Shown one piece after another: positions 21,487-28,098 of a stretch of 50,004 nucleotides of DNA. The DNA is taken from contig CALGEI010000156.1 of assembly GCA_937881575.1 (NCBI GenBank), forward strand, positions 1 through 50,004, written 5' to 3'. The notes under the pieces are model-generated. The model did no database searches and was not told where the DNA came from. It saw only the letters and a program-made list of their open reading frames with translations. How positions within the stretch are numbered: position 1 is the first letter of the stretch; each line of letters opens with the position of its first letter. Both the position numbers and the translations under genes were made by a program. The stretch is from an uncultured Flavobacteriales bacterium (GTDB taxonomy: Bacteria > Bacteroidota > Bacteroidia > Flavobacteriales_D > Sanyastnellaceae).

Positions 21487-21594
21487 CTTCGTAATGCTCT
21501 TGTTCGGTGTAAATATCGCACATGACCAACAATCTTTCGCTATGCCCCAATGTCGTATTGCGCTGGCTGTTTCGAGCCCTTTGTCATCTCATCC

Positions 21595-21602
21595 TATCTT
21601 TA
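21595..21602 (+). promoter_or_regulatory. Possible -7 element 4 nt before ATG 21607
   Basis: TATCTTTA (one mismatch to TAnnTTTG), then CATC, then ATG 21607. A TTTC lies 21 nt upstream. It could drive the three-gene cytochrome operon as a leaderless mRNA. Confidence 0.35.
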
Positions 21603-21606
21603 CATC

Positions 21607-21972
21607 ATGAATATCCAGATTGTCTCTATAGGTCTCGTTGGTTTTCTAGTCATTTTGAACAGCTGTCAATACAACGTGGATTCCATGCTCTACGGAACTT
21701 CCGACTGCCCTGCCATTGAAGCCACTTATCAATCGCATATTTCCGGCATCATTGATAGTGAATGTGCAGGCTGTCACAGCGGAAACAATCCTGCTGCGGG
21801 GCTTGCTCTCACCAACTATGATCAAGTTGTTGCTGCAGTTAGCTATAGTGGTTTGACTCATCGCATTCAACTGCCGTTAAGTGATCCGGATGTTATGCCA
21901 CCCAATGGCGGTCTCGATGCCTGCGAATTAGACGCAATATTGAATTGGGTTGAGAGTGGCAGTCCTTATTGA
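21607..21972 (+). CDS. Cytochrome c-like lipoprotein
   Basis: 121 residues from ATG 21607. A hydrophobic signal ends in the lipobox ILNSC with the lipidated Cys at 20. One c-heme site, C53-x-x-C56-H57 (CAGCH), and a likely axial Met97 in DPDVMPPNGG are visible. Two more cysteines, C34 and C106, could form a disulfide. It should be a membrane-anchored monoheme electron carrier. An upstream ATG at 21550 would hide the lipobox. It leads a run with YceI (15 bp later) and the DUF5777 barrel protein, which suggests a shared envelope function. Confidence 0.88.
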   Translation: MNIQIVSIGLVGFLVILNSCQYNVDSMLYGTSDCPAIEATYQSHISGIIDSECAGCHSGNNPAAGLALTNYDQVVAAVSYSGLTHRIQLPLSDPDVMPPNGGLDACELDAILNWVESGSPY

Positions 21973-21987
21973 ACAAACATCGACTCA

Positions 21988-22545
21988 ATGAACAGCATGA
22001 AACATACTCTCTTCTTTTTACTTTTAAGTACCTGCGCGGCAGTCTCTGCTCAGCAACATATTACCCGTGCCGGCCATGTTCATTTCTTTTCTTCTACTCC
22101 GCTCGAAGACATTGAAGCCGATACGCACCAAATGAGTGCCATTTTGGATCTCAGCAATGAGCAGGCCGTTGGATTTGCTTTCCAAGTCCCTATTTTATCG
22201 TTTCATTTTGAGAAGGCCCTCATGGAAGAGCATTTCAATGAAAGTTATTTGGAAAGCGAACAATTCCCTCGTGCCACATTCGAGGGCATCATTGAAAATT
22301 GGGACGCACTCCCTGACAATGGCGATTGGAGTGATGTGGCGGCGTCAGGCATGTTGACCATACATGGCATTCAAAGGGAACGAATGATACAAGGACAAAT
22401 GAGGATGAATGGCGACTCTTGGGAAATCCAGGCAGCTTTCGATGTACTCACGGCGGATCATGACATTAAGATTCCTAAAATGGTTCAGAAGCAGATCGCA
22501 GATCGCATTGCGGTCACTGTGGAAGCTCAATTGACTCCACGATAA
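21988..22545 (+). CDS. YceI-family periplasmic lipid-binding protein
   Basis: 185 residues with a signal peptide (HTLFFLLLSTCAAVSA) and a YceI-type lipocalin-like barrel. Matching segments are VHFFSSTPLEDIEADTH, ILDLSNEQAVGFAFQVP, EEHFNESYLESEQFPRA and LTIHGIQRER. Known YceI proteins bind isoprenoid-like ligands such as quinones. An internal ATG at 21997 is an equally good start. Its position between a cytochrome and an outer-membrane protein fits a role in carrying a redox lipid, which is an inference. Confidence 0.9.
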   Translation: MNSMKHTLFFLLLSTCAAVSAQQHITRAGHVHFFSSTPLEDIEADTHQMSAILDLSNEQAVGFAFQVPILSFHFEKALMEEHFNESYLESEQFPRATFEGIIENWDALPDNGDWSDVAASGMLTIHGIQRERMIQGQMRMNGDSWEIQAAFDVLTADHDIKIPKMVQKQIADRIAVTVEAQLTPR

Positions 22546-22555
22546 GTTGTTTGCT

Positions 22556-23422
22556 ATGATTCAATTTTTCCATCCTCGATTTATTTTCGCTCTGCTTCTC
22601 GGAATTGTCTCCTTCTCGGCTTCTGGCCAAAGTCTACTGGATGAATTGAGCACCGAGCCCGCAGCGCACGAGGTAACCGCAACATTCAAAGACACCCGAG
22701 TCATCAACATGCAAAGCAACGAAACGCCCGGAGCAGGCGTGTTGCACTTCGTAATCGCTCATCGATTTGGAAGAATCAACGAAGGCCTTTATTCACTCTG
22801 GGGACTGGACAATGCGAGCATGCGCATGGCATTTGATTATGGTCTTACTGATCGTTGGAGCATCGGCCTTGGACGCAGCACTTTTCAGAAAACAGTTGAA
22901 GCCAGCGTCAAAGGAAAATTGCTCATTCAGAAATCGGATAACAGCATGCCCCTCAGCTTAACGTACTATGGCGTGACCATGGCCAACGGAATGCGCTGGG
23001 ACGATCCAGAGCGTGACAATCTCTTTTCTTCAAGACTCAGTTTCGTGCACCAACTGATCTTAACAAGCAAATTGACCGAACGAACGAGTGTCGCTCTCGT
23101 CCCTTCTTTGACTCACCGCAATCTGGTTAGCTTCACCTCACAAAGTCATGATCAAATTACGATCGGTATTGGAGGTCGACATAAGCTCACTCATCGGATG
23201 AGCGTGAATACAGAATACCACCTCCCCATCCAAGGATTGAATGATGGCACGACCAACAGTCTTTCTTTGGGAGTTGACATTGAAACTGGCGGACACGTAT
23301 TTCAATTGCACATTACAAATTCACAAGGGATGTTCGAGCGGGCATTCTTGACAGAAACGACAGGACGTTGGCTCGACGGAGATTTGTTTTTCGGTTTCAA
23401 CCTGAGTCGTGTTTTTTCATAA
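22556..23422 (+). CDS. DUF5777-like beta-barrel outer-membrane protein
   Basis: 288 residues from ATG 22556 (a TTG at 22547 is in frame). A signal peptide (FIFALLLGIVSFSASGQS) is followed by a row of amphipathic beta strands, with conserved pieces TFKDTRVINMQSNET, VLHFVIAHRFGRIN and WGLDNASMRMAFDYGLTDRWS; it ends in FFGFNLSRVFS. This matches the DUF5777 group of Bacteroidota, usually found beside YceI and cytochrome genes. The substrate or function is unknown. It closes the three-gene run begun at 21607. Confidence 0.85.
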   Translation: MIQFFHPRFIFALLLGIVSFSASGQSLLDELSTEPAAHEVTATFKDTRVINMQSNETPGAGVLHFVIAHRFGRINEGLYSLWGLDNASMRMAFDYGLTDRWSIGLGRSTFQKTVEASVKGKLLIQKSDNSMPLSLTYYGVTMANGMRWDDPERDNLFSSRLSFVHQLILTSKLTERTSVALVPSLTHRNLVSFTSQSHDQITIGIGGRHKLTHRMSVNTEYHLPIQGLNDGTTNSLSLGVDIETGGHVFQLHITNSQGMFERAFLTETTGRWLDGDLFFGFNLSRVFS

Positions 23423-23476: not shown

Positions 23477-24277
23477 ATGAAAACAACCATGACTTCCAAT
23501 TTCACTTCATCCGCTTTTCTTTTGACAATTTCGCTTCTTCTCAATTCGATTGAGGCAAAATCCAGCGAATCATTCTCCAATGACTCGATTCCATTAGAAA
23601 AGAAAAAACCAACCAGTGAAGGTTACTGGGGCGGCATTTCGTTGAATATTGTTTCCATGGCTCAGTTTCAAGGAGACCTCGAAGATTACAATGCCTCACT
23701 TGGAGCTCCTCAACACTTGGGCATGAAATTGGATGATGCCACTGAAAGCTGGAGGTTCGAACTGAATCCATTTGAGTATCGTCAGCGGCTAATTGGAGAG
23801 TACATCGGCCTGACCACCGGGCTTGGATTTGATTGGTGGCATGTTGGAATTGATGATGAACACATGCTCTATTTCAATGAGGAAGAGGAGCGCGTGATGT
23901 CCACTGTAATGGGTGGCGACTCCATCAGCATTAGCAAGAACCATTTGGATGCCGTTTACTTGCGGCTTCCCATGCTTGTGAGCTTGAGAACATCGAGAAA
24001 CGGTGATCAAGGCATGCACATTGAAGCCGGACTCGTAGGAGGATATCGAATCTGGAGTCAATACAAAACCAACTACCAGAATGGCGGTGTCAAAACGGAA
24101 GAGACCGTGGGCGACTTTCTAATCAACCCGTACCAACTGCATGCTCGTCTCGCCATGGGGTTTGGCAATGTGAGTTTGTTGACGGAAGTCTCACTCCTCC
24201 CATTTTTCGAAGAAAACCGATCTCCTGCGCTTCACAGTTTATCCCTTGGCTTGCAATTTGCCTTCAACGGAAAATAA
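23477..24277 (+). CDS. Predicted outer-membrane beta-barrel protein
   Basis: 266 residues from ATG 23477, with a second ATG at 23489. A signal peptide (FLLTISLLLNSIEAKS) precedes alternating beta strands such as LIGEYIGLTTGLGFDWWHVG and YLRLPMLVSLRTS, typical of Bacteroidota PorT/OmpW-like barrels. It ends LSLGLQFAFNGK. No specific family can be named with confidence. It lies 54 bp after the DUF5777 gene and may belong to the same unit. Confidence 0.8.
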   Translation: MKTTMTSNFTSSAFLLTISLLLNSIEAKSSESFSNDSIPLEKKKPTSEGYWGGISLNIVSMAQFQGDLEDYNASLGAPQHLGMKLDDATESWRFELNPFEYRQRLIGEYIGLTTGLGFDWWHVGIDDEHMLYFNEEEERVMSTVMGGDSISISKNHLDAVYLRLPMLVSLRTSRNGDQGMHIEAGLVGGYRIWSQYKTNYQNGGVKTEETVGDFLINPYQLHARLAMGFGNVSLLTEVSLLPFFEENRSPALHSLSLGLQFAFNGK

Positions 24278-24313: not shown

Positions 24314-24850
24314 GTGAAAAAGCACCTCCTTATTATCGGCAGCCCTGAACCCAGTTCATCAGGCTTTCTACTTCCTTTCCTTGATACTTTTCTGAAAGAC
24401 CCCCGTTTCGATGTCCGGATCTTGGTTGACCATCAAACCAATTATCAATTTGATCTCGCTCAAGAGCAAGACTCCATTGATTCAGCGCTGAGTGTCACGC
24501 TTCACTTCCCGATCTATTGGTACAGCATGCCGGCTTTAATGAAAGCATGGCTCGATTCCATTTTGACCTTCGGCTGGGCCTTTGATGCCAAAGGAGGTCT
24601 GCTTGAAGGGAAACCCCTTTTGAGCAGCGTCACAACTGGCGCTCCCTTGAGTTCGTATCAATCGAATGGCAAGAACTTAAGACCATTGGACACGTATTTG
24701 CACCATTTAGAGAGAACTGCCGAGTATGCTGGATTTAACTACATCGGCTTGGTCGCTACAGATCAAGTGCGAGGTGACAATTTGAATGCCGCCGCAAGGA
24801 AACAAAAAGAGGCTATTTGTGCCAAGCTTGGGATTAACGCAATAGCATGA
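24314..24850 (+). CDS. NAD(P)H-dependent oxidoreductase, flavodoxin-like fold
   Basis: 178 residues with a GTG start at 24314. It has the flavodoxin_2 layout: LLIIGSPEPSSSGF for the FMN phosphate, HFPIYWYSMPALMKAWLDSI, and VTTGAPLSSYQ. These match quinone/NAD(P)H reductases of the NQO/KefF group. It is probably a cytoplasmic two-electron quinone or azo-type reductase. The last 17 bp overlap the convergent surface-protein gene. Confidence 0.9.
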   Translation: MKKHLLIIGSPEPSSSGFLLPFLDTFLKDPRFDVRILVDHQTNYQFDLAQEQDSIDSALSVTLHFPIYWYSMPALMKAWLDSILTFGWAFDAKGGLLEGKPLLSSVTTGAPLSSYQSNGKNLRPLDTYLHHLERTAEYAGFNYIGLVATDQVRGDNLNAAARKQKEAICAKLGINAIA

Positions 24851-27800
24851 ACGAACCGTTCATTGTTTCCTTACTTGGAATCGTCAGAACATAATAATAG
24901 GTTCCTTCATCCAAGTCATCTGCTCGCCAGTTATTTCCGTAATCACGTTTTTGATAGACCTCATTACCCCACCGGTCAAAAATGAGCAATTCATTGCCTG
25001 GGAACGACGACAAATACTTGAATGTTAGCGCATCGTTGATTCCATCTCCATTGGGCGAAAAAACGTTGACAAACTCCACATCACAGCCTACAATTTCCAT
25101 AGTGGCCATATCAGAATCGCCGCAAAGGCCTTCCAAAACATGAGTCAATTCCAAAACACCAATGCCCGCTGCCTGCAAATTGATAGACCCGTTGTTTTGA
25201 TTCACGCAGTTTTCGCAATTGGCAGACCAGACGCCTCCACCCCAAAGGAATCCTGGTTGCACATAATCCGCTGACAAACAGAGCCAGTCCGGAAGTGTCA
25301 CGCTGGCATCCCGCTGCGGGGCCACTTGAACCGTCACCATGTCCTGATCGAAACAAACACCGTCCACGGTATACGTCACTTCATATTCGCCGGCTCCGAT
25401 GGAAGGATCAAAGGCATCCTCTGCGATAATGCATCCAATACAATCCGATGACCAGACTCCCCCAGCTTCAGCGGCTTGCAATGAAAGAATGTCCCCTGAC
25501 TCACACAGTTCCGGGATTGGAACGATCGACGCATCCACTTGTGCCTCTACGTTTATTGTTCCTATAAACGGCGCGCTGCATTCATTGTTGAAGACGAACT
25601 CGATGCCAACGACTCCCAGCTGGTCAGCAAGGAAAGAACCCGTGTTTGAATTCAAAATACACCCCGGACAATTCGAAGAAGACCACGTTCCATTTTGTCC
25701 CGAAGTATATTCAGAAGGTATGTCTGCGTCAAATGTAAAACTCAAGCCCATCTGCTCTCCTTGACATAAAGGCTCCGGCTCATCGAATGAACCCTGAAGA
25801 GTGGGCTGAATGTCGACCACCCAAGATGATGAATCATTGCAAGCACCATTGGCAATTGTATAGGAGACCTCTAGCAAGCCTGTTGGAGCGTTCCCAACTA
25901 CAAACAATCCGGCACTATCGAGACAAGCAGGGCATGGAGCAGACCAGGTTCCTCCAGGCACATTGACATTGAATTGAAACTCGTCCGACGTCTCGCAAAA
26001 ACTTCCGGGCACATTGGACGCTCCAATGGCCACGCTTTCGCTCACGGCCAATTGCAATTCAGAAACAATGGGACAATAGGAAGCCGGCGTGAACACGATG
26101 TTCCAAATATTGGACTCCATTCCAGTCGCGTCAAACACGCCCGTAAGCGAATCCATGCATCCAAAACAGTCCGATGTCCAGATGCCGGGAACATCCACTT
26201 CAAAAAGCGCGAAGTCGTCCTCGCACAGTATCGATGGTCCCGAAACGATTCCCTCCAAAGGAGGCGACACACCAATTTCCAAGGATGACTCTCCCGGACA
26301 TACTCCGAACGTTGTGAAGGTGACTGTATTCAGCCCATCCTCTGCTTCGTCGGAAAAGAAAACGCCTGTATTTGCATTGATACAATCACCACAAGAAGCA
26401 GACCAAGAACCATAGGGCGGTGTCGCATTCATATCGAATATCTCACCCAAACAGAGCATGTCTGTCGACGCCGTGAAAACCGGTGTAGGCGTGCTCCCAA
26501 TGGGGATATTCAAGGTTATAACATCTGCGAAACAAGACCCTTCTACCACGTGAATGACTTGAAGTCCTCCTGAACCAGCTATGGCTGGATCCACGGTCAA
26601 AGTAGCTTCATCAAAGCATCCATCACAATCCACGCTCCACGTTCCTTCTTCCAATGTGTTCGGAGTGATTTGGAATGGCTCACCGCCGGAGCAAAGTGGC
26701 GCAGGATACGAAAAACCCGCATCCGCATCACTGACAGCAATGACCTCCAATTCATCAGAAACCACTTGCACGTAATCATCGGCCGTAGGCGCTGGACCGT
26801 TGTACTGGTCCACACAAAAACTTTCCGAACCTGAAGACCCTACGGCCAAGGTATACGACCCAACCTCAGTCCCATCGGGAGAGGTGATCGTCAAAACAGC
26901 ATCTGCCCAACCGTTGTTGCCTGAATCCGTCATAATCAGGCCATAGCATCCATTGGGCAAACAAATGGAGCCATCAAATGGCGCATCGTCTGCAAAGAGC
27001 AGCGCCCCATTTTCAGAGACGATCGACCAATCAATTTGCTGATTGCCCGAGTAGGACCCTGAGCTGGTCACATTGATATCATACTCTTCGCAAAAAGTAC
27101 CTACAGGAAGTTGGCTAAACCAACCCGTCAAAGTCGTTGTCTGGGAAGTACAAAAATCCAAGGTGTCTCCAATGCCCAAAAACTCATCCCCCTCATACCA
27201 AAGGGTTGTTCCTTCGACCACCTGCGACGAGGTGAAACGCCAAGCTTCAGAGTTCGCAGACCAGTTTCCTGTATTGAATCCCGCGGGTGCGACCCCACTT
27301 GAACCTGTTGCATTTTGGATTCCCACAGCGGCACTTCCCCAAGAGCAAGAGGGCCGACTGCCCAAATAGATCTCAATCACATTCGACCCTTCATACAACA
27401 CGATTTCAGCACTGACTTGATTGCTCGTGCAGCTAAACTGGCAAACGGCATTGAAAGACACGACAAACTCACGACAAGGTGCCACGCCGTATGTACTGTA
27501 TCGAACATTGCCACATGTTGACGGATTCAAATCACTGTAGACCGCCATGATGCTGTTGAGTGGCATGTTGCCATTTGGAACCAATCCAGGTGGATTATAG
27601 GGTGCGTTTTCACTGAGATTGAATGAAATCCATCCATTCGGTGACAACCGGCATTGTGTATAGTCATTGCCGTAAAAATTGAAACTAAAACCAATGGGCA
27701 CATTGGTCGCTGCAGCGCCATCGTCATCACCGGTGTTTATGCCAACCGTACCTTGATTGAAAGCATACGGCAGCTCATAATCTATTTCCTCTACCTCGTA

Positions 27801-27998
27801 GTCTGCACCGCCGACTGCCACACTCGCAATGCTCGGCGAGACCAATTGGATGCATGAATCCACACACGTGATTTCCACATCTTCTCCGATATCAAACAAA
27901 CCGAACGTATCACACTGGGCCAAAACAGAATCAAATTGAACGCCTGCGAGCAGGAGAGCCGAAAACCAGACCAATTGGAGGTGTTTTTTTGGCAGCAT
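24834..27998 (-). CDS. Repeat-rich secreted protein with gliding-motility (T9SS type B) C-terminal domain
   Basis: About 1054 residues from ATG 27998; a TTG start at 28046 is possible but would put extra residues before a good signal peptide (LVWFSALLLAGVQFDSVLAQ). The N-terminal ~230 residues form a beta domain (VPIGFSFNFYGNDYTQCRLS). Next comes a second beta part, then seven ~77-residue repeats, each with a WSxxCxxC-like motif and two more cysteines. The last ~85 residues are a gliding-motility-associated C-terminal domain (NVFSPNGDGINDALTFKYL, IFDRWGNEVYQ), the signal for type IX secretion. It should be exported to the cell surface. Confidence 0.93.
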   Translation of the reverse strand: MLPKKHLQLVWFSALLLAGVQFDSVLAQCDTFGLFDIGEDVEITCVDSCIQLVSPSIASVAVGGADYEVEEIDYELPYAFNQGTVGINTGDDDGAAATNVPIGFSFNFYGNDYTQCRLSPNGWISFNLSENAPYNPPGLVPNGNMPLNSIMAVYSDLNPSTCGNVRYSTYGVAPCREFVVSFNAVCQFSCTSNQVSAEIVLYEGSNVIEIYLGSRPSCSWGSAAVGIQNATGSSGVAPAGFNTGNWSANSEAWRFTSSQVVEGTTLWYEGDEFLGIGDTLDFCTSQTTTLTGWFSQLPVGTFCEEYDINVTSSGSYSGNQQIDWSIVSENGALLFADDAPFDGSICLPNGCYGLIMTDSGNNGWADAVLTITSPDGTEVGSYTLAVGSSGSESFCVDQYNGPAPTADDYVQVVSDELEVIAVSDADAGFSYPAPLCSGGEPFQITPNTLEEGTWSVDCDGCFDEATLTVDPAIAGSGGLQVIHVVEGSCFADVITLNIPIGSTPTPVFTASTDMLCLGEIFDMNATPPYGSWSASCGDCINANTGVFFSDEAEDGLNTVTFTTFGVCPGESSLEIGVSPPLEGIVSGPSILCEDDFALFEVDVPGIWTSDCFGCMDSLTGVFDATGMESNIWNIVFTPASYCPIVSELQLAVSESVAIGASNVPGSFCETSDEFQFNVNVPGGTWSAPCPACLDSAGLFVVGNAPTGLLEVSYTIANGACNDSSSWVVDIQPTLQGSFDEPEPLCQGEQMGLSFTFDADIPSEYTSGQNGTWSSSNCPGCILNSNTGSFLADQLGVVGIEFVFNNECSAPFIGTINVEAQVDASIVPIPELCESGDILSLQAAEAGGVWSSDCIGCIIAEDAFDPSIGAGEYEVTYTVDGVCFDQDMVTVQVAPQRDASVTLPDWLCLSADYVQPGFLWGGGVWSANCENCVNQNNGSINLQAAGIGVLELTHVLEGLCGDSDMATMEIVGCDVEFVNVFSPNGDGINDALTFKYLSSFPGNELLIFDRWGNEVYQKRDYGNNWRADDLDEGTYYYVLTIPSKETMNGSFMLLR
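25080..26715 (-). repeat. Seven ~77-aa four-cysteine repeats
   Basis: In the protein encoded here the motif G-x-W-[ST]-x-x(x)-C-x-x-C appears seven times: GTWSVDCDGC, GSWSASCGDC, GIWTSDCFGC, GTWSAPCPAC, GTWSSSNCPGC, GVWSSDCIGC and GVWSANCENC. DNA spacing is about 228-259 bp. Each unit starts with LC or FC and ends with a G-x-C-like element. Confidence 0.85.
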
Positions 27999-28098
27999 AC
28001 GATTTATTTTTTGAAACCCCTGTCGGTGTAATTGATTATTGAACAAATCTTAGCGCACAAGGGTTGCACTCTTGAATAACGCCAAAGTAAACCATTTC

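Follow-up and report, generated by a model that had tools for sequence, protein, structure and literature searches.

The window, i.e., the whole stretch of 50,004 nucleotides analyzed here, is a complete contig of a 2.59 Mb genome assembled in 213 contigs, probably of a member of Flavobacteriales, as its nearest named relatives are MAGs of Flavobacteriales and Crocinitomicaceae. The window carries three genes coding for a cytochrome, a YceI protein and a DUF5777 protein, placed head to tail at 21607-23422 and separated by 15 and 10 bp (Table 1). This arrangement had been described in an earlier interpretation made without database searches (the sequence-only reading) and turned out to be exact to the base. 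The motifs by which a lipid-anchored monoheme c-type cytochrome had been recognized (C53-A-G-C-H57 and M97) are present as claimed, and the identities given to the other two products are upheld by Pfam profile matches over the cut-off. DUF5777 reached 306.4 bits against PF19089 (cut-off 23.1), over profile positions 1 to 247 of 247, and YceI 44.9 bits against PF04264 (cut-off 23.7), a match covering only profile positions 20 to 149. In the genome of the window there is one copy of DUF5777 and three of YceI.

Table 1. Features of the cytochrome-YceI-DUF5777 locus (coordinates within the window)
Feature	Position	Strand	Details and basis
Intergenic region upstream of the cytochrome and of the divergent yebC-like gene; probably a promoter region	21487..21606	.	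gene layout
Lipid-anchored monoheme class I c-type cytochrome	21607..21972	+	121 residues; lipobox LNSC, lipid Cys20, C53xxC56H57, Met97
YceI-family lipocalin-like carrier, probably periplasmic	21988..22545	+	185 residues; PF04264 E=2e-11, conserved positions; signal peptide judged by eye
DUF5777 outer-membrane beta-barrel, 12 strands in model	22556..23422	+	ATG 22556; 288 residues; PF19089 E=1.6e-91
OMP_b-brl_2-like gene, possible operon member	23477..24277	+	below Pfam cut-off; 54 bp downstream; 5/6 same-genus loci
Flavodoxin_2 / KefF-like NAD(P)H oxidoreductase, possible operon member	24314..24850	+	6/6 same-genus loci

Within the genus, the order is the same at all six loci (the window and L061-L065): a divergent yebC-like gene, cytochrome, YceI, DUF5777 and the Flavodoxin_2/KefF-like oxidoreductase, with the OMP_b-brl_2-like gene between the last two in five of them. 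The order sample included seven genomes of this genus, one of which gave no DUF5777 match. Given that the OMP_b-brl_2-like and KefF-like genes are on the same strand and conserved in the genus, more than three genes may be transcribed together. A sigma-70 scan detected six promoter-like sites, which is not above chance (4.7 +/- 2.0 in shuffled sequences), and there were seven terminator-like sites (3.3 +/- 1.9 in shuffles), so the operon call rests on spacing and conservation. Incidentally, the minus strand at 24834-28046 codes for a repetitive protein of 1070 residues, the C terminus of which resembles a T9SS sorting domain of the gliding-motility type.

DUF5777 was detected in 162 of the 392 genomes of a phylum-wide sample (159 over the cut-off) and in 129 of 150 genomes sampled from the order of the window. 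From these two samples, 80 regions of up to 17 kb were picked by hand (set 1, with which the window is counted), and the scan of a genome collection provided 80 more named loci (set 2), two of them near-copies of set-1 loci. Twelve profiles, made from clusters of set-1 neighbors only, were run over all 161 loci. Partners were counted when found within 3 kb of DUF5777, and only at loci where the flank reached 3 kb or more on each side (77 in set 1 and 61 in set 2, 138 in total). The small cytochrome family was near DUF5777 at 127 of the 138 loci (66/77 in set 1 and 61/61 in set 2), YceI at 106 (57/77 and 49/61) and both together at 50/77 and 49/61, respectively. Once the near-copies were merged, the values were 125/136 for the cytochrome and 104/136 for YceI, and set 2 without them gave 59/59 for the cytochrome, 47/59 for YceI and 47/59 for both. 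Eleven of the 77 set-1 loci had no cytochrome profile match near DUF5777, and at two loci (L088 and L095) none of the profiled partners was found there. The nearest copy was on the strand of DUF5777 in 106 of 106 cases for YceI and in 125 of 126 for the short cytochromes. In 1,099 kb of distant flank (>4 kb away), the same profiles found 23 YceI, two short-cytochrome and one OB-fold matches, and the linkage at DUF5777 far exceeds this background. In this survey of gene neighborhoods, set beforehand as the refutation test of the sequence-only reading, the genes stay together.

Their order is less constant. YceI is upstream of DUF5777 in 89 of the 106 cases (median gap of 3 bp, 30 bp or less in 73 of the 89) and downstream in 17. 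DUF5777 was also located on four plasmid records. In pEMTOL02 of Emticicia oligotrophica, the order is sigma factor, OMP, Rieske, DUF5777, YceI and c-type cytochrome, with ccsA on the opposite strand; YceI is one gene upstream of DUF5777 in the plasmid of Hymenobacter, where a truncated hemoglobin and hemA are found downstream, and two genes upstream in that of Aureibacter. As gene order varies among loci, the genes have been rearranged without losing their linkage, which is hard to explain unless the genes share a role. Such variable order and partners would fit an ordinary co-regulation of unrelated small envelope proteins with no joint mechanism, but the same few gene families are found together across many Bacteroidota families, and also on plasmids, and this explanation seems very unlikely to us. 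Gene fusions, which would be evidence of contact between the products, did not appear among 7,307 ORFs searched with the twelve profiles.

YceI was missing at 32 of the 138 loci, 18 of which have a diheme cytochrome, an NrfD/Fe-S or an EB_dh-type protein. The other 14 have no profiled substitute; 12 of them belong to set 2 and keep their cytochromes, and the remaining two (L088 and L095) lack a cytochrome as well. YceI is missing from every one of the 13 loci with the diheme cytochrome, versus 19 of the other 125 (Fisher p=6e-10), and from all 18 where a diheme, NrfD, Fe-S or EB_dh protein is found, versus 14 of the other 120 (p=3e-14); both tests treat the loci as independent, which they are not, relatedness being uncorrected, and the result is unchanged in substance when near-copies are merged. 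Taken at face value, these exchanges suggest that YceI does a job that an electron carrier can do, and the swapping for redox proteins is indirect genomic evidence for YceI as a possible electron carrier. In PMC9113575, most solved YceI structures are said to hold ubiquinone-8 or other isoprenoids, and a Burkholderia YceI protein is described as genetically linked to a cytochrome b561, the loss of either raising lipid peroxidation. The same source mentions that a neisserial YceI had earlier been proposed as an electron carrier, the results with inhibitors being inconclusive. A YceI-like protein also appears in an RNA-seq table of Riemerella under iron limitation, presented without DUF5777-cluster context in the consulted part of PMC5429918.

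The AF2 model of DUF5777 (pLDDT of 94.3) is a barrel of 12 strands, and the protein is predicted to be a membrane beta-barrel. No solved sequence relatives were found at E values up to 10. The nearest solved folds to the model are KdgM/NanC (Z of 17.6 and 17.2), FapF (17.5) and COG4313 (4rl8, 16.4), with an identity of 6 to 16% in those alignments, and the FadL matches are weaker (Z up to 12.9). These are narrow channels for sugar acids, for amyloid secretion and of the COG4313 kind, not electron conduits, and they are not known to have redox partners. The DUF5777 barrel has no known cofactor, and conduction of electrons would require one, or a bound cytochrome. His69 and His247 are invariant in an alignment of 29 DUF5777 sequences, which raised the idea of a heme or metal site; judging by eye from the alternation of residues, both seem to be on the hydrophobic face. 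The resemblance to COG4313 and, more weakly, to FadL is what could be expected if YceI, a member of a lipid-binding family according to PMC9113575, supplied the barrel with an isoprenoid lipid to be exported or imported, the cytochrome merely setting its redox state. However, such fold matches are common to many unrelated barrels in the same list, and it is YceI that is missing at 32 loci and the cytochrome that is kept at 127, which makes lipid trafficking quite improbable.

The window cytochrome is under the cut-offs of both Pfam families closest in architecture, PSCyt1 (PF07635; 19.2 versus 22 bits, E of 0.002) and Cytochrome_CBB3 (PF13442; 18.1 versus 27 bits, E of 0.0035). With these it shares a small class I cytochrome domain and a C-terminal segment with the Met ligand, but its relatives may carry CX3CH, CX4CH or CX5CH. 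Single-sequence searches with the window cytochrome, and with the window YceI, returned nothing convincing. A profile of 65 related cytochromes, on the other hand, matches solved class I cytochromes, the best being cytochrome c6 (E=3.7e-6), and the lipid Cys, both heme Cys, the His, a Met-Pro pair and one Trp are invariant in their alignment. The model (pLDDT of 86.6) has a class I-like helix pattern, and its first two Foldseek matches, c6 and OmcF, are weak (E above 1). By its CXXCH, distal Met and similarity to solved members, the window protein is classified from sequence as a class I cytochrome c. Heme binding, on which the sequence-only reading hinged, is predicted for the family as a whole: a CXnCH motif is present in 151 of 151 short cytochromes near DUF5777, and Met-Pro follows the last heme motif in 217 of 220 cytochromes. 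Many loci have two cytochromes, a tandem lipoprotein of ~235 residues and a short one. The first domain of the tandem proteins has CX4CH and the second CX2CH in 62 of 70, and the 151 short ones are divided into CX2CH (108), CX4CH (36), CX3CH (6) and CX5CH (1). This motif spacing is unusually loose for one small cytochrome family, and standard CXXCH scans overlook the CX3, CX4 and CX5 variants.

The N termini of the mature short cytochromes are acidic, C-Y-Y-D-N-E-E being the commonest residues from the lipid Cys on. Positions +2 to +8 contain a mean of 2.4 acidic residues in the short cytochromes (129 of the 151, those with a lipobox found by pattern), more than the 1.4 of the tandem ones (55 of 70; Mann-Whitney p=3e-8) and the 1.1 of 29 other lipoproteins of the loci, although it should be noted that the pattern chose the wrong Cys in at least one locus (L061) and that homologous proteins are not independent observations. 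The lipoprotein export signal of Bacteroidetes includes acidic residues after the lipid Cys, with an optimum of Lys at +3 and acidic residues at +4 and +5, as given in PMC5080379, and the short cytochromes show a resemblance only. The window cytochrome itself has a single acidic residue at +2 to +8, a weak surface-export-like signal.

Other redox proteins recur around DUF5777. The rarer partners at full-flank loci are the diheme cytochrome (13), a Rieske protein (5), an Fe-S plus NrfD pair (3) and EB_dh (3), the last three assigned from one scanned representative each. The nearest NCBIfam models of the Fe-S plus NrfD pair are DsrO/DsrP and QrcC/QrcD, all below the cut-off. An OB-fold protein (PF12869, one member scanned) is near DUF5777 at 20/77 loci of set 1 and 38/61 of set 2. 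Choice-of-anchor-V proteins with CxxCH are found within 3 kb of DUF5777 at 10 of the 138 loci (L086, L087, L090, L092, L093, L098, L099, L160, L199 and L208), on the opposite strand at L093. Each of the ten exceeds the NF041895 cut-off, and eight also exceed that of the T9SS tail, those of L086 and L098 being narrowly under. Directly upstream of another DUF5777 gene (L118:7276-7848) there is a plastocyanin/azurin-like cupredoxin with a T9SS tail, each of the two domains passing its Pfam cut-off. The three-gene unit of the window and its scanned neighbors include no diheme, NrfD, Rieske or T9SS partner, and the choice-of-anchor-V profile had no matches in its genome, where a control profile likewise had none. 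As a separate observation, L119:6193-15773, and also L106 and L139, have the cytochrome and DUF5777 followed by the Fe-S and NrfD genes, which look like those of menaquinone-linked complexes, with more cytochromes.

The strongest rival to an electron-transfer role is an antioxidant module similar to BcnA-LcoA of Burkholderia, in which the cytochrome would keep a YceI-bound quinol or carotenoid reduced, YceI would quench lipid peroxyl radicals of the outer membrane, and DUF5777 would only anchor or load the pair. The linked YceI lipocalin and cytochrome b561 of Burkholderia, with mutants showing more envelope lipid peroxidation (PMC9113575), are a precedent for it. Regulatory genes in the flanks could also be those of a stress regulon: among L061-L220, classified from one scanned representative each, we found a large sensor kinase at 19 loci, LytTR response regulators (a mixed cluster) at 32 and an ECF sigma factor at 13, together with an OMP-like protein in 10 flanks. 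The ECF sigma factor is paired with the OMP-like protein and the LytTR regulator with the large sensor kinase. In the phylum sample, COX1 was matched in each of the 162 genomes with DUF5777, which speaks for the antioxidant role and equally for the electron-transfer role. This contrast is weak because 214 of the 230 DUF5777-negative genomes match too (p=3e-4, phylogeny uncorrected). COX1 is in 376 of the 392 genomes (374 over the cut-off), the 16 negative ones having been compared by eye with the DUF5777-positive list; with COX1 near-universal in the sample, a restriction of DUF5777 to aerobes was set aside. However, the partner here is a c-type lipoprotein and not a cytochrome b561, for which the seven scanned genes of the window gave no match. 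The 18 loci with other redox proteins in the place of YceI are unexpected for a lipid-radical scavenger, and the T9SS-tailed redox proteins at some loci point to the surface. We therefore regard the antioxidant module as unlikely, if less so than co-regulation or lipid trafficking.

Altogether, the cytochrome-YceI-DUF5777 unit is probably a compact form of a widespread envelope redox module of Bacteroidota organized around the DUF5777 barrel. The sequence-only reading had gone from a shared role of the three genes to the transfer of electrons or a redox lipid across the envelope. The first part is strongly sustained by the conserved linkage and the recurrent extra redox and heme genes; the second is not, with a barrel without known cofactor and a weak export signal in the window. 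In the redox module that we favor, the lipoprotein cytochrome would dock at the DUF5777 barrel and pass single electrons, and YceI would be the mobile electron partner, carrying a prenylated redox lipid, most likely menaquinone. This role is assigned to YceI because proteins of the family hold ubiquinone-8 or isoprenoids and one is tied to cytochrome b561 (PMC9113575). Its place could be taken by the diheme cytochrome, the NrfD/Fe-S pair or the EB_dh-type protein. The barrel would be both outer-membrane anchor and pore, positioning the relay, and might admit a small redox substrate or give the heme access to the outside.

Conduction of electrons across the outer membrane by the module is suggested by the T9SS-tailed partners, the acidic N termini and the analogy with Cyc2 (PMC8406198), none of which is found in strong form in the window itself. 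In its most specific version, which we put forward tentatively and consider doubtful, aerobic Bacteroidota would have a minimal trans-outer-membrane electron path. Seated on the DUF5777 barrel, a lipid-anchored monoheme cytochrome, often flipped to the surface by its acidic export signal, would be connected to the pool of menaquinone through a YceI loaded with quinone or else through a diheme cytochrome or an NrfD complex, and some lineages would pass the electrons to T9SS-exported heme proteins or cupredoxins. If true, such a conduit for electrons would be much smaller than Mtr and would make use of a lipid carrier.

None of the systems that we compared is equivalent. BcnA-LcoA also has a YceI protein genetically tied to an envelope cytochrome, but that one is a cytochrome b561, in contrast to the c-type lipoprotein and outer-membrane barrel of the DUF5777 unit; "bacteroid" and "cytochrome c" have zero occurrences in the main text of PMC9113575. 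Cyc2 of iron oxidizers likewise couples a monoheme c-type cytochrome to an outer-membrane barrel, but the two are fused into a single chain, in which the barrel is predicted to have 16 strands and an AXPXFAR motif is present (PMC8406198), whereas the DUF5777 unit has separate genes, 12 strands, no AXPXFAR before CAGCH, and YceI in addition. MtrCAB and MtoAB/PioAB resemble it in having a barrel encoded with cytochromes, with T9SS-tailed redox proteins at some DUF5777 loci as a further likeness. Their barrel, however, has 26 strands around a decaheme cytochrome (PMC8406198), and with 12 strands and a single heme motif in the window cytochrome, the DUF5777 unit does not belong to that type.

The component families are already known, and the ideas of a barrel with a cytochrome and of YceI with a cytochrome have precedents. 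Our literature search, with subscription journals mostly outside its scope, returned no paper naming DUF5777 and no description of the combination, of its spread or of the exchange of YceI for redox proteins. The tie of DUF5777 to YceI, a lipoprotein cytochrome and redox partners that can replace one another provides a functional hypothesis for the barrel, and it can now be tested directly whether electrons of aerobic Bacteroidota reach the outer membrane or cross it. Incidentally, the cluster is also carried by a contig titled Euryarchaeota archaeon SP189 (L151), with a DUF5777 of 52% identity, which has probably been mis-binned.
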